Assembly: GCA_934486875.1 (NCBI GenBank) | Contig: CAKSPU010000018.1 | Location: 1-42,975, forward strand | DNA: 42,975 nt | Direction of reading: 5' to 3' | Source: an uncultured Oscillospiraceae bacterium | GTDB lineage: Bacteria; Bacillota; Clostridia; Oscillospirales; Ruminococcaceae | Part shown: piece after piece, positions 184-42,975 of the stretch | How positions within the stretch are numbered: position 1 is the stretch's first letter | Layout: each line of letters starts with the position of its first letter | The notes under the pieces: model-generated | Told to the model about the DNA's origin: nothing | What the model saw: only the letters and a program-made list of their open reading frames with translations | Databases searched by the model: none | Program-made: the position numbers and the translations under genes

Positions 184-249
184 ATAATACTGTGACCGAT
201 AAAACTAATACTAAACACCATTATAATTATGGATCGGTTATTGGTATAA
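184..249. repeat. Palindromic element, short copy
   Basis: The left arm near 184-206 (ATACTG, GACCGATAAAACT) resembles the left arm of the copy at 25532. The right end, ATCGGTTATTGGTATAA (233-249), matches the right end of the copy at 5600. The arms are inverted relative to each other and enclose about 30 A+T-rich bases. It sits immediately upstream of the SpoIIQ-like gene, so its TTGGTATAAA may contribute to that gene's promoter. Left-arm identity is partial. Confidence 0.5.
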
Positions 250-268
250 AACGAAAGGATATGGTAAT

Positions 269-1027
269 ATGAAAAAGTTTTTCAACGGCAGGCTTTCGGG
301 CAAAAGCACAGCGGCGATAATCTGTTTCTGCCTTGCGGCAGTGGCGGCGCTTGGCATTTTTTCCTACAACAAGGCATCTGAAGAGCTGGCAGGCAGTCTT
401 ACGGGTGTAAAGGACAGTACATCACAGACAGGTACCGAAGCCGTGACGGAAGCGGCGGAGGAAGCGGGCGTATCGGCGGATAATGTGCCTATGGAGCCCT
501 CAGAGCCTGCGGAAGCACCCGAGGAGACCTTAAGGCTTGAGCAGGACGCTTTCGGAGCAGGGGACGGCGGCGAATCACCCGAGGCACAGCCCGTTTCCGA
601 GTCCTTTACGGGAGCGGCTGTAAGACCCGTCAGCGGCGATGTACTGTCTGATTTCTCAGACGGTGAGCTTGTGAAGTCCAGGACCCTCAGCGTCTGGAAG
701 ACCCACGACGGCATTGACATTGCGGCGGAAACGGGCTCGGCGGTCAAATCCGCAGCATCGGGCACTGTGGTTTCCGTTACCGATGACGCTCTTATGGGCG
801 TGACCGTTGTTATCGACCACGGCAGCGGATACGAGGGATATTACTGCAATCTTGCCTATGATGTTCCCGTTTCCGAGGGTGACAGCGTGAATGCGGGCAG
901 CGTTATCGGTGAGGTAGGCTCCACTGCCGAAGCGGAGATATCCGAAGAGCCTCATCTCCATTTCGGGCTCAAAAAGAACGGCAGCTGGACAGACCCTGCG
1001 GATATGCTTTCCGGCGAGGGGTCATAA
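269..1027 (+). CDS. SpoIIQ-like M23 (LytM) metallopeptidase, membrane anchored
   Basis: This 252-residue protein has one N-terminal membrane anchor (about residues 13-33), a low-complexity acidic Ala/Glu/Pro linker (40-110) and a C-terminal LytM/M23 domain (about 118-248). The complete zinc site is visible: H146 and D150 in the HxxxD motif (HDGID), and H229 and H231 in HLH. The preceding stretch (PVSGDVL, DGELVKSRTLSVWKTH) resembles SpoIIQ, the forespore protein that binds SpoIIIAH across the engulfing membranes. In Bacillus SpoIIQ the zinc site is degenerate, whereas clostridial forms keep it. Here it is intact, so endopeptidase activity on peptidoglycan is plausible. The start has an upstream GAAAGGA. 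A terminator follows. None of the other genes nearby is a sporulation gene, so a general cell-wall hydrolase is the alternative. Confidence 0.8.
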   Translation: MKKFFNGRLSGKSTAAIICFCLAAVAALGIFSYNKASEELAGSLTGVKDSTSQTGTEAVTEAAEEAGVSADNVPMEPSEPAEAPEETLRLEQDAFGAGDGGESPEAQPVSESFTGAAVRPVSGDVLSDFSDGELVKSRTLSVWKTHDGIDIAAETGSAVKSAASGTVVSVTDDALMGVTVVIDHGSGYEGYYCNLAYDVPVSEGDSVNAGSVIGEVGSTAEAEISEEPHLHFGLKKNGSWTDPADMLSGEGS

Positions 1028-1053
1028 TTAAAAATCCATTGTAAATCAGTCTG

Positions 1054-1086
1054 ACGGCTTCTCACTCGGGGAAGCCGTTATTTTTT
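1054..1086 (+). terminator. Rho-independent terminator of the M23 gene
   Basis: An 8-bp stem ACGGCTTC (1054-1061) / GAAGCCGT (1071-1078) is followed by TATTTTTTT. The stem overlaps the last codons of the convergent CYTH gene. Confidence 0.75.
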
Positions 1087-1556
1087 GCAAGAGCGGCATT
1101 TGAATACCGCTTGTCGCCCGTGACCTCCTTTATTATCTCGGCGCAGGGCGGGAAAAATATCTCCTGGGCTTCATCGGCAAGCTCCAGCTCCATCGACGCA
1201 AGCTCATCTGAAAACGGGTAGCTGTCTATCTCAAAGCGCTGCCCCGAAAATTCAAGGATATGCCTTGTCTTTATAATAGGCACAAGGGACATATCCGCTT
1301 CCGAACGGAGCTTTTCGTATTCCTCACAGGTGATCTCCCGCTCGTTTTCCTCTCGTGTCACAGCGGATAAAAAGCGTTTTTCGGTGTAATAATATTTAGT
1401 TTCCCCCTCTGCTGTCATACTGCGGATTCGCCTTTGAACAGAGGGGTCTGTCTTTATCAGATAAATCTGCTCAATGTCCGTTTTTTTTGAGCAGGCGGCG
1501 AAAAGCCCGGGGGTCTGACGGATAAGAAATTTGCGCTCTATTTCAAGTGGTATCAT
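1062..1556 (-). CDS. CYTH-domain triphosphate tunnel phosphohydrolase
   Basis: This 164-residue protein begins with the CYTH signature ExExK (E5, E7, K9 in EIERKF). Charged residues recur on alternating positions along predicted strands (RRIRS, KYYYTEKR, EREIT, RFEIDSYP, MELEL), as expected for the eight-stranded tunnel that binds triphosphates with divalent metal. Family members include class IV adenylate cyclases, thiamine triphosphatases and bacterial short-chain inorganic triphosphatases. Nothing here decides which substrate is used, although tripolyphosphatase is the commonest activity in small bacterial members. It is a single gene whose promoter region lies back to back with that of ktrB. 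The AAAGGAAG upstream of ATG supports the start. Confidence 0.8.
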   Translation of the reverse strand: MIPLEIERKFLIRQTPGLFAACSKKTDIEQIYLIKTDPSVQRRIRSMTAEGETKYYYTEKRFLSAVTREENEREITCEEYEKLRSEADMSLVPIIKTRHILEFSGQRFEIDSYPFSDELASMELELADEAQEIFFPPCAEIIKEVTGDKRYSNAALAKNNGFPE

Positions 1557-1633
1557 AATTTTATCTTCCTTTCAAATGAACTGATAATGCTATTATTATA
1601 CATTAAATATGCATTAAAACTGTGAATTTATAA

Positions 1634-1662
1634 TTGACAAAAAATATACCTTGTGATAAAAT
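1634..1662 (+). promoter_or_regulatory. Sigma-A promoter of the ktrBA operon
   Basis: TTGACA (1634-1639), a 17-base spacer, then TAAAAT (1657-1662), 36 bases upstream of the ktrB start. A TATAAT on the minus strand (1595-1600) probably serves the divergent CYTH gene. I see no riboswitch-sized structured leader between promoter and gene. Confidence 0.7.
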
Positions 1663-1697
1663 AAACATATATATTTCTGATTGAAAAGGATATTCCT

Positions 1698-3068
1698 ATG
1701 AATAAGCTTTCGGACATAGACAAAGTTAAAAAGTTTCGTATCAATAAGCTTTCCTCGGCGCAGATAATAGCCTTCGGATATATGGTCATAATCCTTGCGG
1801 GAACGCTTCTGCTGATGCTGCCGATAGCATCAAAGGGTGCATCACCAAAATTTCTCGACGCAATGTTCACGGCGACCTCAGCCACCTGCGTAACGGGGCT
1901 TGTGGTGTTCGATACATATACTCAGTGGTCGGTTTTCGGACAGGCAGTCCTGCTGCTGCTCATTCAGATAGGCGGACTGGGCTTTATGACGGTGATATCC
2001 CTTGCGGCTATGGCGACAGGCAGAAAAATAGGGCTCAAAGAGCGCAGCGTGCTCCAGGACAGCGTAAACGGATTGCAGCTTGCGGGAATAGTCCGAATGG
2101 CACGGAAAATTTCTTTCGGAACGTTCTTTTTCGAGGGCGTGGGAGCAGCGATACTCGCTGTACGGTTTATCCCGAAAATGGGGCTTTGGGAGGGCATCGG
2201 GAACTCGGTGTTCTTCGCAATATCATCATTCTGCAATGCGGGCTTTGACCTTAACGGAAAATACGGGGCATATTCGTCCCTCACGGAATTTGCCTCCGAC
2301 CCCCTTGTGTGCATAACCGCCTGTATGCTTGTCCTTATCGGCGGCATCGGCTTTTCCGTCTGGGACGACATCGGCAGAAATAAGCTCAGCTTTTCAAAAT
2401 ACAGGCTTCACAGCAAAATCGCCCTTGTTTTCACAGGAGTGCTCACTCTCGTTACAGTTATCCTTTTTATGATATTCGAGCAAGGCTATACCAATGTGGG
2501 AGCAGACTTCGGGCAGAGCCTTTTAAATGCATTCGTTGACTCCGTTGCACCGAGAACTGCGGGCTTTAATTCCGTTGATACGGCGGCTCTCAGCCCTGCA
2601 TCATCGGTGCTCACAATGATCTGTATGTTCATCGGCGGCAGCCCCGGCTCCACCGCAGGCGGCGTTAAGACCGTCACTGTTGCGGTGCTTATCCTCTCGG
2701 CTGTGGCGGGAATGAAAAACAGCGATGATGTGGAGATATTCGGCAGGCGGCTTGAAGAGGATCTGCCCCTTAAGGCTCTTACAGTCGTATCTGTGAACCT
2801 TTTCCTTGCGTTCACGGGCATTCTCTGTATATGTGCATTCCAGCCCGATTTTTCCGTCAAGGACATTGTTTTCGAGTGCTTCTCGGCAATAAACACTGTG
2901 GGAATGACCACGGGCATAACAAGAGAGCTTTCACAGGCTTCAAGGATAGTGATAATCCTTATGATGTACTGCGGAAGAGTGGGAAGCGTTTCCTTTGTGC
3001 TTATTTTTACAAGGCTGAAAAAATATACGGGGGTCCGCAATCCTGTTGAACAGGTGAACGTGGGCTGA
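1698..3068 (+). CDS. ktrB: KtrB/TrkH-family K+ channel subunit
   Basis: This is a 456-residue integral membrane protein with four M1-P-M2 repeats. Each pore loop carries its selectivity-filter glycine: TCVTGL (G67), CNAGFD (G182), PRTAGF (G289) and NTVGMT (G402). The glycine-rich gating loop GGSPGSTAGG in the third repeat (313-322) and GRVGS near the end (426-430) are typical of KtrB. The protein takes up K+, often coupled to Na+, as a dimer sitting on a ring of KtrA. The ktrA gene follows 16 bases later, which fits a two-gene transporter. The start follows AAAAGGATATTCCT at good spacing. Length and all key motifs are normal for the family. Confidence 0.93.
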   Translation: MNKLSDIDKVKKFRINKLSSAQIIAFGYMVIILAGTLLLMLPIASKGASPKFLDAMFTATSATCVTGLVVFDTYTQWSVFGQAVLLLLIQIGGLGFMTVISLAAMATGRKIGLKERSVLQDSVNGLQLAGIVRMARKISFGTFFFEGVGAAILAVRFIPKMGLWEGIGNSVFFAISSFCNAGFDLNGKYGAYSSLTEFASDPLVCITACMLVLIGGIGFSVWDDIGRNKLSFSKYRLHSKIALVFTGVLTLVTVILFMIFEQGYTNVGADFGQSLLNAFVDSVAPRTAGFNSVDTAALSPASSVLTMICMFIGGSPGSTAGGVKTVTVAVLILSAVAGMKNSDDVEIFGRRLEEDLPLKALTVVSVNLFLAFTGILCICAFQPDFSVKDIVFECFSAINTVGMTTGITRELSQASRIVIILMMYCGRVGSVSFVLIFTRLKKYTGVRNPVEQVNVG

Positions 3069-3084
3069 TGAAAGGTGATATGAT

Positions 3085-3738
3085 ATGAAGCGTTCCGTAC
3101 TGATAATAGGTTTGGGAAGATTCGGAAAAACCCTTGCGGACAAATTTGACAAGCTGGGCAATGATGTAATGGTTGTGGACAACGATGAGGACAATATCCG
3201 TGAGTTTATGAACCGCCAGATAAAAGTGAAAATTGCGGACTGCACCAAAAGGGAAGCTCTGGACAGTCTGGGTGTGAAAAATTTCGACATATGCTTTGTG
3301 TGCATCGGCAGCAATTTTCAGGCAAGTCTTGAGATAACCGACCAGCTCAAGGAGCTTGGGGCAAAAAAAGTCGTCAGCAAGGCAAGCACAGCTATCCACG
3401 CAAAATTCCTTGCCAAGAACGGCGCAGATGATGTGGTCTATCCCGAAAGGGACAGAGCCGAAAAGCTGGCTCTCCAGTATTCCTCAAATCTTTTCGAGTA
3501 CACCGAGATTTCCAAGGACACGGGAACCTGCGAGATGCCCATACTCAATGAATGGAAAAATCACAGCATCAGCAAGCTGAATATCCGAAATAAATATCAG
3601 ATAATCATTCTTGCAATAAAGAAAGATGATAATGTTCTGCCGCTGCCCAATGCCGAATACGTTTTTGAAGAGGACGACCACGTTCTGGTCCTGGGCAAGC
3701 AGACTGACATTGAAAAGATATCCAAACGAATAAAGTAA
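3085..3738 (+). CDS. ktrA: KtrA/TrkA regulatory subunit of K+ uptake
   Basis: This 217-residue cytosolic protein has an RCK_N (TrkA-N) Rossmann domain with the nucleotide loop G9-x-G11-x-x-G14 (GLGRFG) and an acidic residue ending the second strand (D32). It is followed by an RCK_C (TrkA-C) domain, about residues 135-217. In this family the ring of RCK_N domains binds ATP/ADP and gates KtrB, and RCK_C may bind c-di-AMP. Which ligand is used here cannot be read from sequence. It is the second gene of the ktrB-ktrA-antiporter operon, with AAAGGTGAT upstream of its start. Confidence 0.92.
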   Translation: MKRSVLIIGLGRFGKTLADKFDKLGNDVMVVDNDEDNIREFMNRQIKVKIADCTKREALDSLGVKNFDICFVCIGSNFQASLEITDQLKELGAKKVVSKASTAIHAKFLAKNGADDVVYPERDRAEKLALQYSSNLFEYTEISKDTGTCEMPILNEWKNHSISKLNIRNKYQIIILAIKKDDNVLPLPNAEYVFEEDDHVLVLGKQTDIEKISKRIK

Positions 3739-3747
3739 GGAGAGCTT

Positions 3748-4767
3748 ATGAAAATAATCATCTATATCATACTTCTTGCCCTTGCTGTGGTAACAAGCTA
3801 TGTTTTTCCCCTGCCCCAGATGATGATACTTAGCATAGTAATGCTCATAGCGGGCTTTTATATGCTCATAAGCGGCGCTGATTATTTTGTTGAGGGCAGC
3901 AGCTCTCTTGCACGGAAGCTGAAAATTCCCTCCCTCATCGTCGGGCTTACCATTGTGGCTATGGGAACAAGCGCTCCTGAGCTTGCGGTCAGCGTGTCGG
4001 CGGCAGTGAGCGGCTCAAATTCCATTGCCATAAGCAATGTTATCGGCTCAAATATTTTCAATCTCCTTGTTGTCCTCGGCGTTTGCTCCGCCATTAAGCC
4101 CATTGCCACGAATGACAGCGTTGCAAAGAGGGATTATCCCATTTCCATTGCGGCAGGCGTGCTTTTTGTCATATTTATCCTTGACGGCGTTATGAGCAGG
4201 CTTGAAGCGGCTGTGCTGCTCGCAGGGCTCATTGTATATATGATAGTTTCCGTAAGGCTTGCCAAAAAGGAAGCGGGAGACAGCGGAAATGATACAGCAC
4301 CTGAGAGCAGCTTTTCAGCCGTAAAATGCGCCCTGGGAATGACAGGCGGCATTGCGGGAATAATCCTGGGCGGAAATCTTGTGGTGGATAATGCTCAGTC
4401 TGTTGCCGTTGCGGCAGGTATGAGCGAGACCCTTGCAGGACTTACTATCTGCGCCGTGGGAACAAGTCTTCCCGAGCTTGTGACCTCCGTAACAGCCGCA
4501 AAAAAAGGCGAAAACGATATGGCTGTGGGAAATGTTATCGGTTCAAATATTTTCAACTCTCTCGGCATACTCGGCATTTCGGGCATCATAACCCCTATGG
4601 CTGCGGAGAGCTCTGCGGTCATTGACGGGATTATCCTTGCGGTGCTCAGCGCCGTGGCATATGTGTGGTATCTCACCGACAAAAAGATGTCACGGGGGGA
4701 GGGTGTTACCCTTATCCTTGTCTATGCCGCATATATGGCGTATATTATTGCAAGAAATTACATCTGA
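3748..4767 (+). CDS. CaCA-family Ca2+(Na+)/cation antiporter, YrbG type
   Basis: This is a 339-residue membrane protein built from two inverted alpha-repeats. Each has the cation-binding signature: GTSAPE (73-78) with NVIGSNIF, and GTSLPE (238-243) with NVIGSNIF again. The near-identical repeats and the hydrophobic segments around them give the ten-helix pattern of the Ca2+/cation antiporter superfamily. Bacterial YrbG-like members exchange Ca2+ for Na+ or H+, some with K+. It starts 9 bases after ktrA with AAGGAG upstream, so it is co-transcribed with K+ uptake. The operon probably balances monovalent and divalent cations together. The ion specificity is inferred. Confidence 0.88.
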
Positions 4768-4836
4768 ATGAAAAATTTCCCTGTGTACGGTTGTTTATTA
4801 TATATAAGACTTTGTAACGGAAAGGGAGTAATATAA

Positions 4837-5610
4837 ATGAAAAAAATTCTCATCGCAGCCGCAGCGCTGATAATATGCACGGCAATGTCGGCAGCAGTCA
4901 GCGCAGATGTTTTGATCGAGCCTGTTGACAGCTTTTACACTTCCCATTTAAACGAGATAGAAACAAACAGCGGAAGAAATTCCAGAAAATTTGAACTTAC
5001 CGCCGAAACAAAGGTGTATAATGACCCGGGCGGCAAGGTCGTGGGAAAGCTTTCCGCAGGCATCTCGCCCTACATTTCGTTTTACTATACCGACAAGAGC
5101 GGCATTAAATGGGGCGGATATTATGATTATTCGGGCGATGACGAGCTTCTGTGGATATCCCTTGACGGGCTTGATGTGGTTTATGACAATTACTCCTTTG
5201 AGGAAGAGCACAAGGACGAAATAATAAACGGCAAGGCTGATGAATATGCTTCCTACAGAACGGACAAGACCATATATCTGTGGGATTATCCGGGCAGTAC
5301 CGAAAGCCTTTCTATGGAGAGCCACCCCGATGATTTTGTGACCTATGTGAGCAGGATATATACTGACACAACAGGGGGCAAATGGGGATATATCGGCTAT
5401 ATGTGGGGCTGCGAGGGCTGGATATACCTTGATGATCCCATCGACCCCGCACCCTTCGGCGAAGATGTTTCCGCAGGGGCAATGACGGCGGAAAGCGTTT
5501 ACGAGGAAACGGACAGCGGAAATTCCTATGCTCTGCCTGCCGTGCTTGCAGCGGGTGCGGCAGCTGTGTCCGCCGCAATGGTTTTCGGTATGAAGAAGAA
5601 AAGAAACTGA
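4837..5610 (+). CDS. Secreted, C-terminally membrane-anchored protein with SH3-like repeats
   Basis: This 257-residue protein has a cleavable signal peptide (about 1-23, ending SAVSA), an extracellular part of roughly 200 residues and a C-terminal transmembrane helix with a KKKR stop-transfer tail (about 232-257). Two parallel segments (about 46-110 and 132-200) each carry a strand pattern ending in KWGGYYDY / KWGYIGYMWG and then a W-containing strand. This looks like a pair of bacterial SH3-like modules, which usually bind cell wall. The anchor lacks LPxTG, so it is held by the helix and not by sortase. I cannot name the family. GAAAGGGAG precedes the ATG. Its stop codon lies at the edge of the palindromic element that follows. 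Confidence 0.75.
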   Translation: MKKILIAAAALIICTAMSAAVSADVLIEPVDSFYTSHLNEIETNSGRNSRKFELTAETKVYNDPGGKVVGKLSAGISPYISFYYTDKSGIKWGGYYDYSGDDELLWISLDGLDVVYDNYSFEEEHKDEIINGKADEYASYRTDKTIYLWDYPGSTESLSMESHPDDFVTYVSRIYTDTTGGKWGYIGYMWGCEGWIYLDDPIDPAPFGEDVSAGAMTAESVYEETDSGNSYALPAVLAAGAAAVSAAMVFGMKKKRN

Positions 5611-5707
5611 TTGAGAACCGATTAAAAACTGTAAAAAATCAAGAATGATCCTGTGTATATGGATCATTCTTGATTTTTTTGTACAGTTTTATTGGTTATT
5701 GGTATAA
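5600..5707. repeat. Palindromic element, complete copy
   Basis: The left arm (GAGAACCGATTAAAAACTGTA, about 5612-5632) and right arm (GTACAGTTTTATTGGTTATTGGTATAA, ending 5707) are imperfect inverted repeats. They share AACC-AT-AAAACTGTA. They enclose a 19-bp perfect hairpin with A and T runs. The termini and inner arms match the copy at 25532 while the hairpin sequence differs. The left boundary overlaps the stop codon of the preceding gene (TGA at 5608-5610). Confidence 0.75.
5633..5680. terminator. Bidirectional terminator hairpin inside the element
   Basis: A 19-bp perfect stem (5633-5651 with 5661-5679) has a 9-base loop. The stem begins with an A run and ends with a T run, so the transcript from either strand ends in U residues. 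On the plus strand it would end the preceding membrane-anchored protein gene. Confidence 0.8.
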
Positions 5708-6027
5708 TAACCTGCGCTTTACCATTGCTTTCTCCCTCACTTCGGCTCCGTGCAGCCTGTTATTATCATTAATTCATAGTATATTTCTATGAACATAGCG
5801 TTAACTATTGCGATAAATTTAATAATTTCTGCATAAAATGCCTTGCTTTTGCGGAAAACGTTTCCTCTCGGTATGATGCAGTTATCATATCATAACATAC
5901 ACATTATAAATTCACCCGACTGTCACACTGTTATCCGACAATTTTCGGTGTTTTTTCACAATAGCGGGGTTAATAATATATCAAGTTTTAACAGTAAATG
6001 AGAATTTTCAGGTTTATAAAATAAATG
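5708..6027. other. A+T-rich intergenic stretch, no gene seen
   Basis: About 320 bases between the palindromic element and the antiporter promoter. There is no ORF with a ribosome-binding site. An inverted pair ATAATAAC / GTTATTAT flanks 5704-5767. I recognised no riboswitch or RNA motif. Confidence 0.5.
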
Positions 6028-6056
6028 TTGAATGTTCATAAATATTGTGCTATAAT
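6028..6056 (+). promoter_or_regulatory. Sigma-A promoter of the CPA2 antiporter
   Basis: TTGAAT (6028-6033), a 17-base spacer, then TATAAT (6051-6056), 50 bases upstream of the start codon. AGAAAGGACGA supplies the ribosome-binding site. Confidence 0.7.
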
Positions 6057-6106
6057 TCAGACTGAACTAAATAATATACCTATTTTATAAAGAAAGGACG
6101 ATTTTT

Positions 6107-7318
6107 ATGCAAGATTATTCGTACCTGCTTTCGATAGCGCTTATCCTCATCAGCACAAAGCTGCTGGGACTTTTTTCAAAGAAGATAAAGCTCCCTCAGG
6201 TCGTCGGAGCGCTTATTGCGGGCGTTATTATGGGTCCTGCCTGTCTCGGCTGGATACATAACACCGATATGCTCAGTTGCCTTTCCGAGATCGGTGTTAT
6301 CGTTCTGATGTTTGCCGCAGGACTGGAGACTGATATAAATGAGCTCAAGCGTACAGGAAAGGCATCTTTCCTTATTGCTCTCATAGGCGTTGTGGTTCCT
6401 ATGCTGGGCGGTGCGGCTGCCGCATATTTCTTCAACGATTCCACGGACGGAAACAAGATGCTCCAGAACATCTTCATCGGCATTATCCTTACAGCCACTT
6501 CCGTCAGTATCACCGTTGAGACCCTTAAGGAAATGGGCAAGCTTTCCACCCCTGCGGGCAATGCGATCCTCGGTGCGGCTATCATAGATGATATCCTCGG
6601 CATCATCGCTCTTACAATGGTCATCAGTATGGCTGACTCCTCCGTAAGCATCGGAATGGTTCTTCTTAAGATACTCGGCTTCTTTGTATTCACCTTCGTT
6701 GCCGCTGTGGGCTACCACTACGCATTCAAGAAGTGGACCGACAACAACCCCGTAAAGCTCAGAAGATACGTTGTTATCAGCTTTGCATTCTGCCTTGTCC
6801 TTGCATACTGCGCTGAGGAATTTTTCGGCGTTGCGGATATCACAGGTGCATTCTTCGCAGGTCTTGCGATATCGGGAACGAATAAGGCGGATTACGTTAC
6901 CAAGCGTTTCGACACACTTTCCTATCTGCTCCTTTCACCTATCTTCTTCGCAAGCATCGGTCTTAAGGTAGTTCTCCCCAAGATGAACCTTGAAATAGTC
7001 CTCTTTACCGTCATCATCTGCCTTGTGGCTATTATTACAAAGGTCATCGGCTGCGGTCTCGGTGCAAAGATATGCAAGTATTCAAATAAGGAATCTCTCC
7101 AGATCGGCGTGGGTATGATATCCCGTGGAGAGGTCGCCCTCATCGTTGCCAACAAGGGCGAGGCTGTGGGACTTATGAGCGACAAGTTCTTCGCTCCCAT
7201 CGTTATAATGGTCGTGCTCACAACTATCATAACCCCTGTGCTGCTAAAGGTTGTGTTCAAGGATAAAAATGATGCGGATAAGCTCGAAGAAAAAGAGCCT
7301 GTAGCCGCTGCCAAGTAA
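6107..7318 (+). CDS. CPA2-family Na+(K+)/H+ antiporter
   Basis: This is a 403-residue membrane protein with about 12 hydrophobic segments and only the Na_H_exchanger domain. The C-terminal TrkA-N domain of Kef proteins is absent. The ion-binding helix reads GAAIIDDILGI with paired aspartates D161-D162, the pattern of electrogenic NapA/NhaA-type exchangers, whereas Kef-type proteins have Gln-Asp. The unwound fourth-helix segment TATSVSITVETL (129-140) is also typical. It probably expels Na+ in exchange for protons and so complements the K+ and Ca2+ transporters upstream. It is a single gene with its own promoter and terminator. Confidence 0.88.
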   Translation: MQDYSYLLSIALILISTKLLGLFSKKIKLPQVVGALIAGVIMGPACLGWIHNTDMLSCLSEIGVIVLMFAAGLETDINELKRTGKASFLIALIGVVVPMLGGAAAAYFFNDSTDGNKMLQNIFIGIILTATSVSITVETLKEMGKLSTPAGNAILGAAIIDDILGIIALTMVISMADSSVSIGMVLLKILGFFVFTFVAAVGYHYAFKKWTDNNPVKLRRYVVISFAFCLVLAYCAEEFFGVADITGAFFAGLAISGTNKADYVTKRFDTLSYLLLSPIFFASIGLKVVLPKMNLEIVLFTVIICLVAIITKVIGCGLGAKICKYSNKESLQIGVGMISRGEVALIVANKGEAVGLMSDKFFAPIVIMVVLTTIITPVLLKVVFKDKNDADKLEEKEPVAAAK

Positions 7319-7331
7319 TAATTACAATATT

Positions 7332-7368
7332 TCTGCTGTGCGAAAAGATCGTGCAGCAGATTTTTTTT
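7332..7368 (+). terminator. Rho-independent terminator of the antiporter
   Basis: Stem TCTGCTG (7332-7338) / CAGCAGA (7354-7360) followed by eight T residues. Confidence 0.75.
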
Positions 7369-7410
7369 ATATGCATAAAACGGCTTTGCTGCGTCACTTG
7401 CGAATGCTTT

Positions 7411-7437: not shown

Positions 7438-7455
7438 TTTTTTTTCAAAAACCCC

Positions 7456-7483: not shown

Positions 7484-7487
7484 ATAA

Positions 7488-7514: not shown

Positions 7515-7557
7515 CAGACAAAAATATCAAGTGCTAAAGGAAGAGGGTGATGAGCCT

Positions 7558-16816: not shown

Positions 16817-16856
16817 TTAATGCTAATAACGGTTGTTCTGTAGATAAAGCCGACAG
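16817..16856. repeat. Palindromic element, single arm (subtype with AAAGCCGACAG)
   Basis: This 40-base stretch is nearly identical to 42848-42887: both read TTGTTCT, TAGATAAAGCCGACAG after a TAATAAC terminus. No opposite arm is recognisable nearby. It lies between two minus-strand genes, just after the stop of the membrane GGDEF gene. An ACCGATC / GATCGGT pair flanks it at about 70 bases separation. Confidence 0.7.
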
Positions 16857-16873
16857 ATTATAAGATCGGTCTT

Positions 16874-24987: not shown

Positions 24988-25179
24988 ATGAAATACTGTT
25001 CAAAATGCGGTCAGGCAAATGATGACAATGCGGAAAACTGCTCAAAATGCGGAGCGAAGATCACCGACAAGCCCCTTACCGTCATAAACAAAAATTCCTA
25101 TCACTGGGACGCTGTAAGAATAATCCTTGCCATACTTATCATAGGAATTATGATAGCGGGCTTTGCTTTCGAGGGCTGA
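24988..25179 (+). CDS. Small zinc-ribbon membrane protein
   Basis: 63 residues. An N-terminal zinc ribbon with two CxxC pairs (C4/C7 and C17/C20: CSKCGQANDDNAENCSKCG) is joined by a short linker to one transmembrane helix (about 43-61). It is of the common zinc_ribbon_2 type, function unknown. A TATAAT (24950-24955) and GGGGGAG precede it. Its stop overlaps the start of the next gene (TGATG), so the two are translationally coupled. Confidence 0.8.
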   Translation: MKYCSKCGQANDDNAENCSKCGAKITDKPLTVINKNSYHWDAVRIILAILIIGIMIAGFAFEG

Positions 25180-25550
25180 TGAAGAAAAATATTGCCGCCG
25201 CTATAGTCACATTCGGTATGTATCTCATAAACCGCAGGGTGAGGACTGTGGCAGGCGGTGCTGTCGGGTACTTCCTGCGGTGCTATTTCAACGATATCGC
25301 AGGAAGCGTCACGTTTATGTCCCTTGTGAATATCGTGCTGCTTTTTCTGGGCTTTCGTGAGATAACAAGGCTCCTGCACACTGAAATGCTGATGCTTGGT
25401 GCGGGGATCATATGGGAATACGTCACTCCGCTTTTCCGCAGCGATACGGTGTCGGATCCTTTTGATATCCTTGCGTATATGCTGGGCGGATTTATTTACC
25501 GGGTCATTGTGCAGAAAATGCAGGACACTGTTTATACTGATAACCAATAA
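25179..25550 (+). CDS. Small integral membrane protein, coupled to the zinc-ribbon gene
   Basis: 123 residues from ATG 25179, which overlaps the upstream stop. Three or four hydrophobic segments, with GAGIIWEYVTPLF and DPFDILAYMLGGFIYRVI. The order (hydrophobic helix, WE-containing loop, D-x-x-D-x-x-AY-x-x-G helix) resembles small VanZ-like membrane proteins, but I cannot assign it firmly. The last codons (Y-T-D-N-Q-stop) lie inside the left arm of the palindromic element that begins at 25532, so the present C-terminus is partly element-derived. Confidence 0.7.
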   Translation: MKKNIAAAIVTFGMYLINRRVRTVAGGAVGYFLRCYFNDIAGSVTFMSLVNIVLLFLGFREITRLLHTEMLMLGAGIIWEYVTPLFRSDTVSDPFDILAYMLGGFIYRVIVQKMQDTVYTDNQ

Positions 25551-25637
25551 AACTGTAGACAAAAAATCTTCGCATAATCCATATATGCAAGATTATGCTC
25601 GATTTTTTGTACAGTTTTTAGTTGGTTCTCAGTATAA
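25532..25637. repeat. Palindromic element, complete copy (106 bp), with terminator hairpin
   Basis: This is the clearest copy. The left arm starts TTATACTGATAACCAATA, and the reverse complement of the right end starts TTATACTGAGAACCAACTA. Both continue AAAACTGTA and AAAAAATC. Inside is a hairpin with stem GCATAATC (25572-25579) / GATTATGC (25591-25598) bounded by the A and T runs, so it can terminate transcription in either direction. It supplies the stop codon of the preceding gene. No ORF is inside. Confidence 0.85.
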
Positions 25638-33959: not shown

Positions 33960-33974
33960 GGCGGTTTCCTTTCA

Positions 33975-33998
33975 TAGAACAGTTGGTTATTAGTATAA
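33975..33998. repeat. Palindromic element, solitary end
   Basis: TAGAACAGTTGGTTATTAGTATAA is the reverse complement of the terminus at 42848 with only two or three differences. It lies in the 55-base divergent gap between the DUF3810 and PAP2 genes, with TATAAA at its end close to the PAP2 start. No second arm is visible. Confidence 0.6.
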
Positions 33999-34014: not shown

Positions 34015-34542
34015 ATGACTGATCTTTACAACAAAAGCTGTGAGCGCTTTTATGAAAATTATCCCCGGATCTACGAGTGGTTCACGGCTTCGGAAAAGCG
34101 TGTTTCGGGGCTGAAAATTTTTAAGTCCCTGTCGACTGCGGTAATGTACGGGGCGTATATTCTGCTGCTTGTGTTTCTCGGTGCATCAGGGGATATGAGG
34201 ATAATAAAGGCGGTGGCTGTGCCTGCATTCGTGTTCCTTTTCGTGACGGCGGTGCGAAAGGGGATAAACGCTCTGAGACCTTATGAAAAATATCCCATAA
34301 AGCCTGTCATTCCCAAATCAACTAAGGGAAAATCCTGCCCCAGCCGTCACACTGCCTGCGCTTTTATAATCGCTCTGGCGGTGCTTTATGTAAATGTGCC
34401 ATTCGGCATATGCCTGCTGATATTGTCCGTATTTATCGGCATTTCACGCCCTGTTATGGGGGTGCATTTTCCCCTTGATGTGCTTTTTGCGGCGGTAATT
34501 GCCATTATTCTCGGGATCCTTGGCTTTTATATCATTCCCTGA
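34015..34542 (+). CDS. PAP2-family membrane phosphatase
   Basis: 175 residues with five hydrophobic helices. Acid phosphatase signature in three parts: RKGINALRP (81-89), CPSRHTA with PSRH (109-112) in place of the usual PSGH, and SRPVMGVHFPLDV (S144, R145, H151, D155). The catalytic histidines H112 and H151 are kept. It should dephosphorylate lipid phosphates such as undecaprenyl pyrophosphate or phosphatidic acid at the membrane. Its 3' end overlaps the convergent mnmM-like gene by 11 bases, leaving no room for a terminator. Confidence 0.85.
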   Translation: MTDLYNKSCERFYENYPRIYEWFTASEKRVSGLKIFKSLSTAVMYGAYILLLVFLGASGDMRIIKAVAVPAFVFLFVTAVRKGINALRPYEKYPIKPVIPKSTKGKSCPSRHTACAFIIALAVLYVNVPFGICLLILSVFIGISRPVMGVHFPLDVLFAAVIAIILGILGFYIIP

Positions 34543-35098
34543 TGATGAAAATGGGGATCGGGGGGCAGTTGGGACGGTTGGAAAATTCGGCGGTGATGAC
34601 GGTGTATTCATCGCTGTCGATCGTTTTTACAAATTCAAGGAGAGCGTCCTTTTCCTCAAAGCCCGTGTCCCTGCCGTAGTAAAGTATCATTGAGATGAGT
34701 CCGCCCTTTCTGATAAGGCGCAGGGCTTTTTTCACCGCTTCAAGGCTTGTGTCCTTGTTTGTATGAACGGTGTGGTCGCCCCCGGGGAGCCAGCCGAAAT
34801 TAAAGGTTATGCAGGATACTGTGCCCTCATAGGCATAGTTGTCCATCTCCGTATGGCTGCCGAGGACAAGTCTGGCACGGTCGTAAAGCCCCTTTTCGCA
34901 GAGAAGCTTTTTGGTGCTTTCGATAGCGTCGCTCTGGATATCAAAGGCGGTCACCTTTCCGCTGTCGCCCACAAGCTCACATAAAAATGCGGTGTCGTTT
35001 CCTCTGCCTGCGGTGGCATCTATGCAGATGTCGCCCTCGGAGACACGGGAGGCTATGACACCCTTTGAGATGTCAAGGGCATTGAATGTCTTTCTCAT
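34532..35098 (-). CDS. mnmM: tRNA (mnm5s2U34) methyltransferase MnmM (YtqB) family
   Basis: 188 residues with the class I methyltransferase motif DATAGRGNDTAFL (27-39), an acidic residue after the second strand (FDIQ) and FNFGWLPGGDH (99-109), the signature of the YtqB/rRNA_methylase (PF06962) group. Bacillus YtqB has been shown to be MnmM, which methylates the aminomethyl group of tRNA wobble uridine using S-adenosylmethionine. Function here is by family. Its ATG overlaps the stop of the pantothenate kinase gene (ATGA), so it is the last gene of the long minus-strand run. Confidence 0.85.
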   Translation of the reverse strand: MRKTFNALDISKGVIASRVSEGDICIDATAGRGNDTAFLCELVGDSGKVTAFDIQSDAIESTKKLLCEKGLYDRARLVLGSHTEMDNYAYEGTVSCITFNFGWLPGGDHTVHTNKDTSLEAVKKALRLIRKGGLISMILYYGRDTGFEEKDALLEFVKTIDSDEYTVITAEFSNRPNCPPIPIFIIRE

Positions 35099-35925
35099 AT
35101 ATTCTGCGTCCTTTCAAGTCCGAGGATAACTGCGCCCAGAGCACCTGCATAGGCGGCTTTCGGGGGAACGGTGAATTTCAGTCCGTGGAGGTCGCCCACC
35201 GCTTCGAGAATGGCTTTGCCCTCGGGTATCTCGGACATTGCGCCTACGAAAACGGCTTCGGTGAAGTCGGTACCTTTGCAGGCAAAGGCTGCCATCACAC
35301 CTGCGGTCTGGAACACCATATTCGCAAGTCCTGCGGCGATATGGGCAGGCTCGTGAGATATATGGCGGCTGCCGAAATTTGCGGCGGTGACGTTTGCCGC
35401 AAGACCGCCTAAAATGCCCTTGCAGATGTCGCCCATTGTGAGATCGACCTTGGCAGGGTCGCCCTCGGATATAAGGCGGTTCACGGTATCGCTGTCGGTG
35501 ACGTTTATTGTAAGGTCCGCAAGACCTGCAAGTGTGCCGCCGCCGACTCCGCTGCCGCCGATATGGGTGAGCCTGTCGCCGTCGGCGGTGACAAATGCTG
35601 TACCCGTGCCGATGCTCACAACAACAGCCTTGCTTATGCCGCTGAGCTTCTGCGCCCCACGGGCAAAGCAGCCGAACTCCTCAAAATAAGTCCGTGGGAT
35701 ATTTCCGAAGCGGTGCTCGGCAATGTCATTGCCTGCTCCTGTAAGGAAAATGTACTGCGGAGGGGCTGTTATTCCCGCTTCACCAAGCATTGCCCTCACT
35801 TCCGCTTCGAGATGTTCACCGCTGCCGTCGGCGGTGTATTTTCTGCCTGCAAGGATATTTGCGCTGTCATCTGCGGCGATGAGCTTTACTGCCGAGCCGC
35901 CGATATCTGCTCCAAGATAGTACAT
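35095..35925 (-). CDS. coaW: Type II pantothenate kinase
   Basis: 276 residues from ATG 35925. A longer TTG start at 35946 would place the ribosome-binding site AGAAAGGA inside the gene. ASKHA fold: GADIGGSAVKLI at the N-terminus (phosphate 1), VVVSIGTGTAF in the middle, then GGSGVGGGTLAGL and FVGAM toward the end. This is the pattern of the eukaryote-like (Fumble/CoaW) kinases, which phosphorylate pantothenate, the first step of CoA synthesis, and are usually insensitive to CoA feedback. It lies 4 bases after the ThuA gene and overlaps mnmM by 4. Confidence 0.87.
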   Translation of the reverse strand: MYYLGADIGGSAVKLIAADDSANILAGRKYTADGSGEHLEAEVRAMLGEAGITAPPQYIFLTGAGNDIAEHRFGNIPRTYFEEFGCFARGAQKLSGISKAVVVSIGTGTAFVTADGDRLTHIGGSGVGGGTLAGLADLTINVTDSDTVNRLISEGDPAKVDLTMGDICKGILGGLAANVTAANFGSRHISHEPAHIAAGLANMVFQTAGVMAAFACKGTDFTEAVFVGAMSEIPEGKAILEAVGDLHGLKFTVPPKAAYAGALGAVILGLERTQNI

Positions 35926-35929
35926 TTTC

Positions 35930-37743: not shown

Positions 37744-37756
37744 AGTCGGGTTCCTT

Positions 37757-39154: not shown

Positions 39155-39173
39155 ATATAACGCTCCTGTTATA

Positions 39174-40034
39174 TTACATAAGCGCCGAAAGCTGCCGGGA
39201 AACATCTGCAAACTGCTGTAGGGTGAGCTGCTCGGGGCGGATATTTTCCGAAAGCCCTGCGGCTTTTATTGCGCTTATAACGGTCTGCTTGTCGGCGGAC
39301 ATTGATGAGGAAAGGGAGTTTGCGAGATTTTTTCTTCGCTGTGAGAATGCTCCTCTTACCACACGGAAAAAGAATTTTTCATCGGCAACATTTACTGCGG
39401 GGGTCTCCCTGATATCAAGGCGGATAACGCAGGAATCAACGTTGGGAGCGGGCATAAAGCTGCCTCGTGAAACGTTGAAAAGGAGCTTGGGCTCTGCGTA
39501 GTAATGCACCGCCGCAGTTACCGCTCCGCACTCTCTGCTGCCGGGCTTTGCACAAAGTCTTACCCCTGCTTCCTTTTGAACCATTACGGTGACAGACTTT
39601 ATGGGCAGGCGGCTTTCAAGGAGGTACATTATGATAGGTGAGGTGATGTAATAGGGGAGGTTTGCGCAGACCGCCACATCAAGCCCCTTGAAATTTTCCT
39701 CGATAACGGCGTTAAGGTCGGTTTTCATAACGTCCGCATTGATAATTGTAACGTTATCATATTCCGCTAAGGTCTCCTGTAAAATCGGGATAAGGCGGGT
39801 GTCGATCTCCACCGCTGCGACCCTGTCCGCACGCTTGGCAAGCTCGTTTGTGAGAACGCCCACGCCTGTTCCTATCTCGATAACGCCGAAGCCTTTTCCG
39901 GCATTGCCCATTTCGGCAATTTTCGGGCATATTGAGGGATTTATGATAAAATTCTGCCCCAGTGCTTTGGAAAATGTGAAGCCGTGGCGCTCAAAGATAT
40001 CCTTTATAACGTTTATGTTTGTGAGATTTTCCAT
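39174..40034 (-). CDS. rsmA: 16S rRNA (A1518/A1519-N6)-dimethyltransferase KsgA/RsmA
   Basis: 286 residues. S-adenosylmethionine site VIEIGTGVGVLT (51-62), AVEIDTRLI (75-82) and the N6-adenine methylase signature NLPYYIT (125-131). It begins with HGFTFSKALGQNFIINP, the conserved KsgA N-terminus, and ends with the small helical domain. It dimethylates two adenosines in helix 45 late in 30S assembly, and loss gives kasugamycin resistance. It lies 12 bases after sfsA in the long run of minus-strand genes. Confidence 0.95.
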   Translation of the reverse strand: MENLTNINVIKDIFERHGFTFSKALGQNFIINPSICPKIAEMGNAGKGFGVIEIGTGVGVLTNELAKRADRVAAVEIDTRLIPILQETLAEYDNVTIINADVMKTDLNAVIEENFKGLDVAVCANLPYYITSPIIMYLLESRLPIKSVTVMVQKEAGVRLCAKPGSRECGAVTAAVHYYAEPKLLFNVSRGSFMPAPNVDSCVIRLDIRETPAVNVADEKFFFRVVRGAFSQRRKNLANSLSSSMSADKQTVISAIKAAGLSENIRPEQLTLQQFADVSRQLSALM

Positions 40035-40046
40035 AAGGTCTTTCCT

Positions 40047-40748
40047 TTATAAAATTATTTTGCAGGGCTTGTCTATCACCATACTGTCGGGGGTGACGGC
40101 GCAGGTGTATGCGAGGACGTTCACGCCGTTTTCCGAAGCGGCTTTCAGGGCATCGGCAAACTGTGGGTGGGTGTTACGGTTGGGGGTGAAATATTTCGCC
40201 CTTTCCATTTGTATCACAAAGAGAATGTATGCCTCGTATCCGCTTTTTGCGGCGGTCACAAGCTCATTTATGTGCTTTAGTCCACGCTCTGTCGGTGCGT
40301 CGGGAAAGCGGCACACACCGTTATCCTCAAGGGTGCAGCCCTTGACCTCCATAAATATTCTGCGTTCCCCCGCTTCAATGTAAAAATCAAATCGGGAGCT
40401 GCCGAAAACCGTTTCGGGGCGGATATATGTGACATTTTCAAAAAGCTGTGGGATAAATTCCATTGCGGCTTTGTTGGGGCTCTGGCTGTCCATATTTATG
40501 AGCATTCCGTTTTTGTAAACGGCGATGAGGTCATATTGTGTCTTTCGGCGGGGGGCTTTGCTGCTGTCTGCGGGAGGGGCTTTTTCAAGTATCACCCTTG
40601 CGCCCCGGGGCAGAAGCTCTTTGCACCGTCCTGTGTTTTTAACGTGGACGGTCTCTTCTCTGCCGTTTACTGTGACCTTTGCAATAAATCTGTTGGGGCG
40701 GGAGATGAACACGCCCTCTTCGGTAATGCCGTATTTTATGGAGCTCAC
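40047..40748 (-). CDS. sfsA: SfsA family DNA/RNA nuclease-like protein
   Basis: 233 residues. FISRPNRFIAKV, HVKNTGRCKELL, SRFDFYIE, FMEVKGCTLE and FPDAPTERGLKHI are the family signatures. The last three form a PD-(D/E)xK-like nuclease core. Known as sugar fermentation stimulation protein in E. coli, it binds DNA, and nuclease activity has been suggested. The listed start is GTG 40748, but AAGGGGTGAG abuts it. Family members start around MKYG, and here that position is ATA (40739), so start choice is uncertain. It lies 3 bases after the DUF6472 gene. Confidence 0.9.
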   Translation of the reverse strand: MSSIKYGITEEGVFISRPNRFIAKVTVNGREETVHVKNTGRCKELLPRGARVILEKAPPADSSKAPRRKTQYDLIAVYKNGMLINMDSQSPNKAAMEFIPQLFENVTYIRPETVFGSSRFDFYIEAGERRIFMEVKGCTLEDNGVCRFPDAPTERGLKHINELVTAAKSGYEAYILFVIQMERAKYFTPNRNTHPQFADALKAASENGVNVLAYTCAVTPDSMVIDKPCKIIL

Positions 40749-40751
40749 CCC

Positions 40752-40946
40752 TTACATCTGATGCTTTACAACGCCGTATTCATCGTCAAGACGATAGTAG
40801 GGACAGGCGTAATTCGTGCCGTTCATAAAGCGGTACATCTCGTCCTCGTCAAGATTTACAAGGCAGGTGTAGCAGTCATAATCATCGTCATATACGTAAT
40901 TCACGCAGGTATCGCAGTTTGTGGGCTGCTTTGCAGTTCGGGACAT
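40752..40946 (-). CDS. DUF6472-family small cysteine-rich protein
   Basis: 64 residues from ATG 40946, with AAAGGAAG upstream. The listed frame opens 24 bases earlier. C11/C14, C25/C28 and C48 with NCDTCVNYVYDDDYDCYTC and ACPYYRLDDEYGVV give a probable zinc- or iron-binding mini-domain, very acidic. I recall this family as DUF6472, widespread in Clostridia and of unknown function. Tight spacing between the nitrilase and sfsA genes. Confidence 0.78.
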   Translation of the reverse strand: MSRTAKQPTNCDTCVNYVYDDDYDCYTCLVNLDEDEMYRFMNGTNYACPYYRLDDEYGVVKHQM

Positions 40947-40966
40947 TTTCGGCACTTCCTTTCGGG

Positions 40967-41845
40967 TCATCTTTTTCTGTCGCTTCTCACAAATGGATAT
41001 TTTATCTCTTCCGATGTCAGGAGCGAATATTTTTCGGGTCGTCTGTAGGCATTTCCGTGGACTTCGGTCTCACGGTATCGTCTGAGCACATCAATATCAA
41101 GCTCGCCTATGTATATGCCCTCGGTTTCCCCTGCATCAAGGACGCAGGTATCACGGGAGGAGGGAAGCTCGGGGAGGTATGCCACGCCGTCAAAAAGGGT
41201 GGAATGACCGTTGCAGTCGGGGTGTCCTGCGGGATAATTGCAGGTGGCTATGGCGGTCATATTTTCATAGGCTCTGCCCCTGAGCTGGGAGAGCCTGTTT
41301 ATCTCCATAGGGCAGGCATTCGGCACAAGGATAAGCTCTGCGCCTTTGAGCATAAGTATCCTTGCACTTTCGGGAAATTCCCTGTCATAGCATATCATTG
41401 AGCCTACGGTCACATCTCCCTTGGCGGTGGAAAGAACGCCTGTGTAAAAGTCATCGCCCGCAGAAAGTCGGGCTTCGCAGCCGAAATCGCAGGTATGCAC
41501 CTTGGAATATTTATAAACGAGTCTGCCGCTTTTGTCAAAAAGGCTGACGGTGTTTTTGGGCAGCGGTTCAAAACTTTCAGGATAGGTCACGGCAATTGCC
41601 GTTTCAAGCTCGGCGGCAAGGCTTTGGAATGAACGGACAAACCTGCCCTCCGATGATACTGCCATTGCCTTTAGCTCTGAAATATCCTCGGGAATGGTAT
41701 ATCCGCAGCTCCACATTTCGGGGAACAGAATGATGTCCGCTCCCATTTCCTTTGCTTTTTTGCAGGCTTCTGTGCCCTTTTTCAGATTGCCCTCTGCCGA
41801 TGCTTCGGGGAGCAGCTGCATAAAGGCGATTTTAAGCTTATCCAT
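40967..41845 (-). CDS. Carbon-nitrogen hydrolase (nitrilase superfamily)
   Basis: 292 residues from ATG 41845. AAAGG lies 11 bases upstream and an earlier ATG at 41863 precedes that site. Catalytic triad Glu-Lys-Cys is complete: E43 in FPEMWSCGY, K115 in YSKVHTCDFG and C152 in GSMICYDREFPES. It hydrolyses an amide or nitrile, substrate unknown. NAC-x-x-EINRLSQLRGRAYEN and the closing GELDIDVLRRYRE fit the amidase branches near N-carbamoylputrescine amidase and omega-amidase. It starts 14 bases after the DUF5131 gene. Confidence 0.87.
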   Translation of the reverse strand: MDKLKIAFMQLLPEASAEGNLKKGTEACKKAKEMGADIILFPEMWSCGYTIPEDISELKAMAVSSEGRFVRSFQSLAAELETAIAVTYPESFEPLPKNTVSLFDKSGRLVYKYSKVHTCDFGCEARLSAGDDFYTGVLSTAKGDVTVGSMICYDREFPESARILMLKGAELILVPNACPMEINRLSQLRGRAYENMTAIATCNYPAGHPDCNGHSTLFDGVAYLPELPSSRDTCVLDAGETEGIYIGELDIDVLRRYRETEVHGNAYRRPEKYSLLTSEEIKYPFVRSDRKR

Positions 41846-41859
41846 AATTTTTGTACCTT

Positions 41860-42675
41860 TCATATATCATCAATCGTGAGCTGAATGTTTTCCTCTTCGG
41901 TCATTCGGGCGGTCTCGGGGATATAGTTTTCGCCTATGCGGAAATCAATGTCCGCTTTTCTTGCCTGACTGCGCTGATAGCGGCGCTTTATAAAATATGT
42001 TCTGCCGTCCTTGACAAACCGTGCGCCTGTCTGATGAAAATAAAAGGGGATATTTTCCGAGATGCACTGCTCTCTGAGGGACAATATCCAGTCATAATCG
42101 CAGGGACGGGCATTCTGACCCGATTCGCCCCCTGCGGAGACCTCCTCTATACGCCCGTCAAGATAGGGGGATATGTTTATTTTTTCAAGCAGGGGAGCGG
42201 CTATGACGGAGCGGTGCTTTATGGGCAGGGAGAGGAATATCGGCAGGCGGAAGTCGGCTCTGTCCTGATTTTCAACGGTGCAGCCTATCATCACGTTGTC
42301 ATAGCCGTCGCCCCAGTCATCGGGCAGGCAGCTTTCAAGGCGGTCGATGCGCTTGGTAAAGAAATAAAAGCGGCAGTCGATTCGCTCTTTCATCATTTTC
42401 CAGCAGTCATCACGCCAGCCGTCGGCATCGGACAGGAGAAAATCAGAGGTGAAGCAGGTAAATAGCATCCTGCCCGAGGGTATTTTATAGCTGCCGTCAC
42501 GCTTTCGTTTAACGGGCAGGTCAAAATTGCCTGTTTTCTTGCAGAGGCTGCTTGACTGCGTGCTTCCGTACATTTCGTCCTGTCGGTAGACGTAGCAGTA
42601 TTTGCAGCCCGGGCTTATTTTCGTGCAGCCGTGCCACGGGTTCCAGTCGGCATAGAGCGGTGAGATGTTTTTCAT
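41860..42675 (-). CDS. DUF5131 (phage Gp37/Gp68-like) protein with a radical-SAM-like cysteine motif
   Basis: 271 residues. N-terminal DWNPWHGCTKISPGCKYCYVY holds C17, C24 and C27 (Cx6CxxC), which suggests an iron-sulfur cluster as in radical-SAM-like enzymes. FYFFTKRIDRL, NVMIGCTVENQDRADFRLPIFL and SAGGESGQNARPCDYDW are hallmarks of DUF5131/PF07505. The family is frequent in phages and mobile DNA but also in chromosomes. The role is unknown. Its ATG overlaps the stop of a small upstream gene (ATGA), and its own ribosome-binding site is weak, so translation is probably coupled. Confidence 0.85.
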   Translation of the reverse strand: MKNISPLYADWNPWHGCTKISPGCKYCYVYRQDEMYGSTQSSSLCKKTGNFDLPVKRKRDGSYKIPSGRMLFTCFTSDFLLSDADGWRDDCWKMMKERIDCRFYFFTKRIDRLESCLPDDWGDGYDNVMIGCTVENQDRADFRLPIFLSLPIKHRSVIAAPLLEKINISPYLDGRIEEVSAGGESGQNARPCDYDWILSLREQCISENIPFYFHQTGARFVKDGRTYFIKRRYQRSQARKADIDFRIGENYIPETARMTEEENIQLTIDDI

Positions 42676-42857
42676 TTTTTTATCTTTTCAAAAAGTACGG
42701 TCTGCTCTTTAAGAGATATCTTTCCCACCTTGTGACCGTATTCGGTCAGCTCTTTTTTACAGCTGAGGAAAGAATGGTCTATGGGCAGTCCTGCGATTTT
42801 TTCTGTTTCGGAAAATGTGAGACAAAGGCTTTCTCTGTCAAGCTTTTTTATACTAAT
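42672..42857 (-). CDS. Small protein of unknown family, 5' end apparently replaced by a repeat element
   Basis: About 61 residues if an ATT or ATA inside the repeat serves as start. The frame stays open to a TTG at 42941, but that upstream part is the repeat element itself. Its sequence KLDRESLCLTFSETEKIAGLPIDHSFLSCKKELTEY shows a compact alpha/beta domain, and the ATGA overlap with the DUF5131 gene shows it belongs to the same transcript. No ATG and no Shine-Dalgarno sequence lie near its beginning. I infer the element inserted at or within its 5' end, leaving a truncated gene, or that a non-standard start is used. Confidence 0.5.
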   Translation of the reverse strand: MSIKKLDRESLCLTFSETEKIAGLPIDHSFLSCKKELTEYGHKVGKISLKEQTVLFEKIKK

Positions 42858-42975
42858 AACCGATTGTTCTATAGATAAAGCCGACAGATGAAATAAGCCC
42901 AGTCTAGGAAAGCGACCGCAGGCGGGCTTTGCGCCCGGCAAGGAAGCTTGACGACGAATGGGCTTATTTCAGCCG
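42848..42975. repeat. Palindromic element, large structured copy, cut by the window edge
   Basis: It begins TTATACTAATAACCGATTG and shares 40 nearly identical bases with 16817-16856. Inside, TGAAATAAGCCCA (42889-42901) and TGGGCTTATTTCA (42959-42971) form a 13-bp perfect stem enclosing 57 bases, in which CGGGC (42923-42927) / GCCCG (42933-42937) makes a second hairpin. The opposite terminal arm, if present, lies beyond the window. The insert is G+C-rich, unlike the A+T-rich ends. Confidence 0.7.

Follow-up and report, generated by a model that had tools for sequence, protein, structure and literature searches.

Short palindromic elements of one family, read here as miniature inverted-repeat transposable elements (MITEs), occupy six sites in a stretch of 42,975 nt (the window; contig CAKSPU010000018.1, from an uncultured Oscillospiraceae bacterium). 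The ends of the family are constant (TACTRANNACC…GGTNNTYAGTA) and its centers are variable. Loci and genomes are cited by the L and G labels used throughout the analysis. The closest contig is CAMBJF010000009.1 from an uncultured Ruminococcus (L001, genome G001), with 90-93% identity over blocks longer than 400 nt; judged by its sequence, the host of the window is Ruminococcus-like.

Palindromic elements in the window

The inventory consists of two full type A copies of about 100 bp (E1 and E2), one 38-bp derivative, one truncated type B copy, and two fragments. These and the features attached to them are as follows.

209-246: 38-bp deletion derivative in which a left end like that of type C, TACTAAACACCATTATAATTATGG, meets a right end GGTTATTGGTA; flanks TAA (206-208) and TAA (247-249)
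5608-5610, plus strand: TGA stop codon of the open reading frame (ORF) 4837-5610, which is the left flank of E1; in G001 this TGA is also present, and the sequence after it differs
5611-5704: complete type A copy E1, with a central hairpin and a left end 2 nt short relative to E2; right flank TAA (5705-5707), unlike the TGA on the left
5680-5708, plus strand: promoter-like TGTACA-17-TATAAT with an extended -10, arising where E1's right end meets the flank (a consensus match only)
16821-16858, plus strand: decayed type B arm, a fragment recognized by an inner-arm match
25532-25534: left flank triplet TTA of E2; the right triplet, TAA at 25635-25637, is not identical
25535-25634: E2, a complete 100-bp copy of type A; no element at this place in G001 (compared from one side only)
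33974-33995: fragment of a type B arm with TAA (33996-33998) as its right flank, missing at the orthologous place in G001
42851-42975, plus strand: type B copy cut by the end of the window (about 160 bp long elsewhere); left flank TTA (42848-42850)

A sequence-only reading of the window had grouped the six sites by their ends, and the grouping was borne out. The end motif TATACTRATAACC (up to two mismatches) has eight matches in the window against 1.0 expected, a number reached in none of 100 shuffles. Six of the eight fall at five of the named sites (both arms at 25532); the remaining two, at 5968 and 6619, seem fortuitous. The site at 16817-16858, the sixth, was detected via the 29-nt inner arm CGATTGTTCTATAGATAAAGCCGACAGAT, which at up to three mismatches matches twice, at 16830 and 42861, where 0.00 matches are expected. 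Matches to AACCRATWAAACTGTA are confined to the two complete copies; at three mismatches their count was reached by 19 of 100 shuffles and is not beyond chance on its own. While all six sites proved real, their limits had to be corrected; the 38-bp copy, for example, spans 209-246 and not 184-249. The two complete copies do carry different central hairpins, as had been claimed, with fold energies of -40.0 and -42.0 kcal/mol. The statement that the elements contain no genes holds, with the amendment that ORF 25047-25550 extends 16 nt into E2 and takes its stop codon from it. This ORF has no Pfam match and lies in a region that is unaligned in the G001 contig. In neither the window nor L001, L003, and L004 did any Rfam model score at its gathering threshold; weak microRNA hits to the hairpins were put down to chance.

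Copies in related genomes, their flanks and empty sites

The type A arm pattern was searched at up to three mismatches in the 16 genomes nearest by one protein. The numbers are matches, not copies; they include B arms (mainly in G002 and G003) and the second arms of single copies. Matches were found in six genomes (G004, 29; G005, 26; G001, 22; G003, 3; G006, 3; G002, 1) and in none of the other ten, and the reversed control gave one match across all 16. In a genus sample, six of 20 genomes matched. A type B query gave 43 alignments in G024, 31 in G028, 30 in G003, and 13 in G001, some of them both strands of one palindrome. Many type B matches sit at contig ends, and the repeats probably break metagenome assemblies. 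No match to two exact arm patterns was found in viral contigs, and no A element was found in plasmids.

One set of ends encloses three main centers. A, of about 100 bp, folds as a hairpin that has A- and T-tracts; B, of 158-160 bp, is structured; C, of 100 bp, has ends that are mostly TACTAAACACC. Shorter derivatives also occur; the overall range is 38-160 bp. Rough labels for 100 element rows, which were drawn from fetched loci and are not a full census, were A for 64, B for 16, C for 14, and other for six. In L235 (G028:C5) a B element is nested in another B-like element, and in L238 (G023:C44) two different MITEs stand in tandem with one TTA in common. Next to MITEs there are other palindromes, with hairpins of the CTATAGAC/GTCTATAG type and ends reading AGTATTA or AGTATAA (L004 just below 3983; L321 just below 1708, minus strand), possibly a further family.

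The flanks of the copies carry a target-site duplication of three base pairs. Collection by ends alone gave 89 end pairs, from which 13 were dropped (ten chance pairs in unrelated loci and three overlapping rows). Identical flanking triplets, all of the form TNA, were present in 67 of the remaining 76 copies, or 67 of 89 with the dropped rows included, none of which match. The triplets were TTA (26), TAA (24), TGA (9), and TCA (8). When the right flanks were permuted 1000 times, identical triplets numbered 23.3 on average and 36 at most, versus the 67 observed. The duplication is no longer than this: a 4-bp match occurred once and matches of 5-9 bp never among the 76 copies. In the larger set, 86 of 100 rows had identical triplets; here the search pattern loosely included T-N-A, and one row (L008) is a non-element. 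Outside the triplet, T is weakly preferred three bases ahead of its center and, symmetrically, A three bases behind it (55% each, 86 sites). The only window copy with identical triplets is the 38-bp derivative.

Copies on fecal contigs had identical triplets in ten of ten cases (10 of 20 matching records examined). The MITEs are carried by unverified 'Bacteriophage sp.' contigs from Mexican fecal samples (L395-L404: MT836536.1, MT836567.1, MT835868.1, MT839986.1, MT838372.1, MT837237.1, MT839977.1, MT836584.1, MT836087.1, and MT835833.1). Since MT838372.1 also matches chromosomal DNA of the window in two places, 6129-7266 and 34527-35104 (about 80%), this contig at least is probably bacterial DNA.

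Orthologous places without the element were found as well. The copy in L110 (G004), with TTA on both sides, could be aligned through the junction with L122 (G003; 71% over 496 columns), which lacks the element and has a single triplet, GTA, at the site; this is a two-sided empty site. The fragment at 33974 is absent in G001 inside a continuous alignment of 801 bases. One-sided cases include E2, which is missing in G001 with the homology on the right running to the element edge and the left flank not shared; the G003 copy C3:13826, located at the TAA that ends a called gene, where G024 and G023 keep the TAA and have no element; and a fecal copy present where the window (near 34527) has none. 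The two-sided alignment of L293 with L306, at a copy flanked by TAA and TTA, is ambiguous. For E1 there was no two-sided comparison, its two flanks lying on different contigs in G001. Of three flank searches for further empty sites, one led to a shared TAA: in G022 (L237, G022:C127) a B copy follows directly after a stop codon (TAA followed by TACT), and at the orthologous place in G028 (L382, G028:C27), a second species, a different element of about 59 bp, starting TACTAATCTTCA, follows the same TAA. Either one target was re-used or one element replaced the other in place.

An insertion sequence with the same ends

Ends of the same kind enclose transposase genes. The insertion sequence in locus L081 (G003) is laid out as follows.

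392-1526 of L081: insertion sequence with ends TACTAACCACCAATTAAACTATAGACAAA and TACTAAACACC, 1,129 bp apart, flanked by TCA and TCA and enclosing two ORFs

The first ORF contains HTH_33 and HTH_23 and the second DDE_3 (PF13358). The second belongs to IS630 by model NF033545 (134 bits, cut-off 100), to which the first scores 64.7 bits, below the cut-off; no IS5 model was among the matches of the two ORFs. An A7 run, listed for seven of the nine relatives searched, links the two ORFs and would fit a -1 frameshift. A relative was found in 11 of 297 genomes of a family sample (E≤1e-40) and in seven of 394 genomes of an order sample (E≤1e-25).

Five of 18 loci have a pair of ends around the ORFs (L081, TCA; L222, TAA; L361, TAA; L362, TTA; L363, TCA), as do three of five later loci (L390, TAA; L391, TTA; L392, TTA); the pairs were picked by position from outputs that also contained chance pairs. 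All eight insertion sequences with a chosen end pair have identical TNA triplets, and the 2-bp TA duplication by which IS630 elements are recognized was not found. AGTA followed by TNA stands just past the ORF in six further loci of 14, and not in L364 and L368. No end pair around the ORFs was found in 13 of the 18 loci, which are cut, broken or diverged and in which chance TACT...AGTA pairs have unequal triplets, nor in L393. Because its transposase is IS630-like but the TA test fails, the insertion sequence, the likely partner of the MITEs, is classed as a divergent lineage. The insertion sequence of L362 (G216, 886-2014) has the left end TACTAATCTTC, the right end TACTAAACACC, and TTA on both sides; it looks like a hybrid.

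Resemblance between the miniatures and the insertion sequence extends inward from the outer bases. Among 12 subterminal comparisons (2000 shuffles, uncorrected p values), the left end of A resembled the left end of the insertion sequence (p 0.0015), and the right end of B resembled the same end more closely than any shuffle (0 of 2000).

The elements are MITEs: they are short, non-coding, and dispersed, with inverted ends, target-site duplications, empty sites, and ends in common with an autonomous transposon. In all likelihood they are moved by cut-and-paste in trans by the IS630-family insertion sequence with the same ends. The 1.1-kb element would supply the transposase, which would bind and move the miniatures; the TNA duplication would reflect a 3-nt staggered cut, and internal deletion followed by replacement of the center would have produced the miniatures. 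Several miniature families (A of about 100 bp, B of about 160 bp, C of about 100 bp, and shorter ones) use the same outer ends.

A number of observations weigh against this reading. The flanking triplets mismatch in nine of the 76 copies, four of which, in G001, have TAA...TTA. The same combination occurs, unexplained, in six of the 100 rows from three genomes (L093, the same copy as in L001; L149; L150; L293; L238; and L231). Neither complete window copy keeps identical triplets (TGA/TAA for E1 and TTA/TAA for E2). Most empty sites are one-sided, and the flank searches with L313 and L220 (two of the three) gave no junction. As for the transposase, G004 and G005, the genomes richest in A-arm matches, have no match to it at E≤0.001 in draft metagenome assemblies, a threshold at which four of the 16 genomes had one. 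At L363 an outer alternative pair agrees with the ends at 14 of 16 bases, versus 12 of 16 for the inner pair, and has unequal triplets (TCA/TTA); the inner pair was chosen because it abuts the ORFs. The broken locus L394 has one weak end pair, with TAT/TTA. The C ends resemble the insertion sequence weakly (p 0.02-0.15), and the left end of A does not resemble the right end of the insertion sequence (p 0.108). Finally, the insertion sequence of G001 ends in TACTAATCTTC and the MITEs of the same genome in TACTAATAACC; the pairing of MITE and insertion sequence is therefore plain in the outermost bases and less so further in.

Possible host functions, other origins and known systems

Use of the mobile miniatures by the host, as portable two-way terminators (type A) or as structured RNA (type B), would be compatible with their transposition; we regard it as possible and on balance unlikely. 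Type A is a long hairpin, and A- and T-tracts lie on its two sides in 63 of 75 elements of 97-103 bp, a form that could act as a two-way terminator; a consensus terminator scan, on the other hand, called neither of the type A copies in the window. In 14 copies of type B, two-sided changes affect nine of 55 predicted pairs, and covariation is 0.137, compared with 0.080 for shuffled and 0.009-0.050 for slid versions, in a test whose structure was derived from the same alignment of related copies. Against this, further pair types are no more frequent than in shuffles (19 versus 18.9), and covariation in a palindrome can come from template switching or hairpin repair without any function. The covarying stems are thus only suggestive of a structured RNA.

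The position of the copies relative to genes also bears on host use. Most copies are intergenic: among 93 rows with long flanks, 27 stand between convergent genes, 10 between divergent and 34 between co-directional ones, and 22 inside a called ORF; some of the enclosing ORFs are probably false calls. Convergent settings exceed divergent ones (27 versus 10, p 0.008). The TNA triplet is able to regenerate TAA and TGA stop codons, and 14 of 65 intergenic copies with matching triplets lie exactly on a stop codon, where 6.9 would be expected if all TNA in the same gap were equal (p 0.005). Within 60 nt of a stop codon the numbers are 14 of 37 versus 7.7 expected (p 0.012; both counts at an 80-codon cut-off). 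The excess depends on a simple ORF caller and holds at three ORF-length cut-offs (p 0.004-0.006 for the same gap and 0.008-0.012 for up to 60 nt behind the stop). A first count (16 of 93 on a stop codon versus 78 of 1446 control sites) was exaggerated, because its control includes regions before genes. The excess is mild and may in part be due to selection; a location at gene ends can follow from selection against harmful insertions. Nearness to other hairpins showed no excess (6 of 65 versus 6.8 expected).

A different origin of the triplet has also to be weighed. Elements of the IS1031 group of IS5 insert at TNA and make 3-bp repeats (PMC12016507, excerpt), as was found here, and an IS5/IS1031-type transposase could have produced the duplications, with the IS630 elements matching the ends by chance or capture. 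We consider this improbable. IS630-type transposase genes lie inside the eight insertion sequences with such ends, which themselves have TNA repeats, and ISLrh, the IS1031 example in that paper, begins with GAACCTGT instead of TACT; IS5 transposases were not searched for in these genomes.

It is more improbable still that the copies are fixed regulatory or terminator sequences with no mobility. The long type A hairpin with its tracts and the convergent settings among the 93 rows would suit such sequences, but the target duplications refute this as a sole explanation, and nested and tandem copies (L235, L238) and orthologous places lacking the element also speak against it. Repetitive extragenic palindromes (REPs) moved by a REP-associated tyrosine transposase, for which no search was made, share with the present family that they are palindromic and extragenic, and can be practically dismissed in view of the terminal inverted repeats, the target duplications, and the ends in common with an IS630 element. 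REPs are tagged palindromes of 20-40 bp that are not known to combine terminal inverted repeats and target duplications; membership of the family among them was rejected on the presence of both features.

The reading as MITEs mobilized by the insertion sequence is retained. The sequence-only reading had left the choice between MITE and REP-like unit open and had suggested looking for further copies, target-site duplications, empty orthologous sites, and a transposase gene with matching ends. All four were found: dispersed copies in relatives (tens of matches in G001, G003, G004, and G005, and type B in G024, G028, and G003), identical TNA triplets in the three collections (67/76, 86/100, and 10/10), some empty sites (one two-sided, one at a fragment, several one-sided), and the 1.1-kb insertion sequence. 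They support the MITE, and the REP-like alternative fell.

The surprise in this system seems to be its target rule, a bacterial IS630 lineage with TNA in place of the usual TA. Zator, with a 3-bp TWA duplication and bacterial relatives, could make the rule less surprising. An IS630 lineage may have switched from the 2-bp TA to the 3-bp TNA and so, with both TAA and TGA included in TNA whichever strand is read, come to land on stop codons and to regenerate them. The miniatures would then spread two-way terminators and structured RNA, and gene ends would be preferred, re-used docking sites where insertion does little harm. We put this forward as a speculative scenario that is rather doubtful as a whole. 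A bacterial TNA lineage would be a naturally occurring counterpart from which to learn what parts of the transposase govern the choice of target and the spacing of the cuts; a structure of the mariner Mos1 transposase joined to its TA target exists (PMC5481204, excerpt). For annotation, the family explains a class of repeats in gut relatives of Ruminococcus that is not in Rfam. In open-licence PMC literature, no paper was found that combines IS630, MITE, target site duplication, and TNA, nor one with Ruminococcus, MITE, and IS630, and no bacterial IS630 lineage with TNA was seen there.

Among known systems the nearest kind is RUP of pneumococcus, a repeat that duplicates TA. RUP is described as a repeat of about 107 bp with ends resembling those of IS630-Spn1 (PMC3049150); the present family is likewise a repeat of about 100 bp with ends like those of an IS630-family element. 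It differs in its host, its TNA duplication, and the several centers to one set of ends; the ends of RUP were not compared. SPRITE, a second small pneumococcal repeat in the same excerpt, is terminator-like and over-represented close to the 3' ends of convergent genes (PMC3049150), and shares both traits with the MITEs, but its own ends are merely AAAA/TTTT, whereas the present family has clear ends and a duplication.

For the insertion sequence, ISY100 provides the comparison within the transposase family, to which NF033545 and PF13358 assign our element. ISY100 is reported to insert almost only at TA and to duplicate it (PMC2170065, excerpt), in contrast to the TNA of all eight chosen elements. 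TA is given for the whole IS630/Tc1/mariner group, with the TATA of Sailor as a modification, in PMC8533490. The pogo elements, treated as a superfamily of eukaryotic transposons, have TAA and TAAA duplications (PMC7386202, excerpt). Sailor and pogo are thus members of IS630-Tc1-mariner with duplications other than TA, as is proposed here; a triplet with a free middle base does not occur in the passages on them. The IS1031 group shares the TNA duplication and a pair of overlapping ORFs connected by a -1 frameshift (PMC12016507, excerpt), and differs from the present insertion sequence in transposase family and ends.

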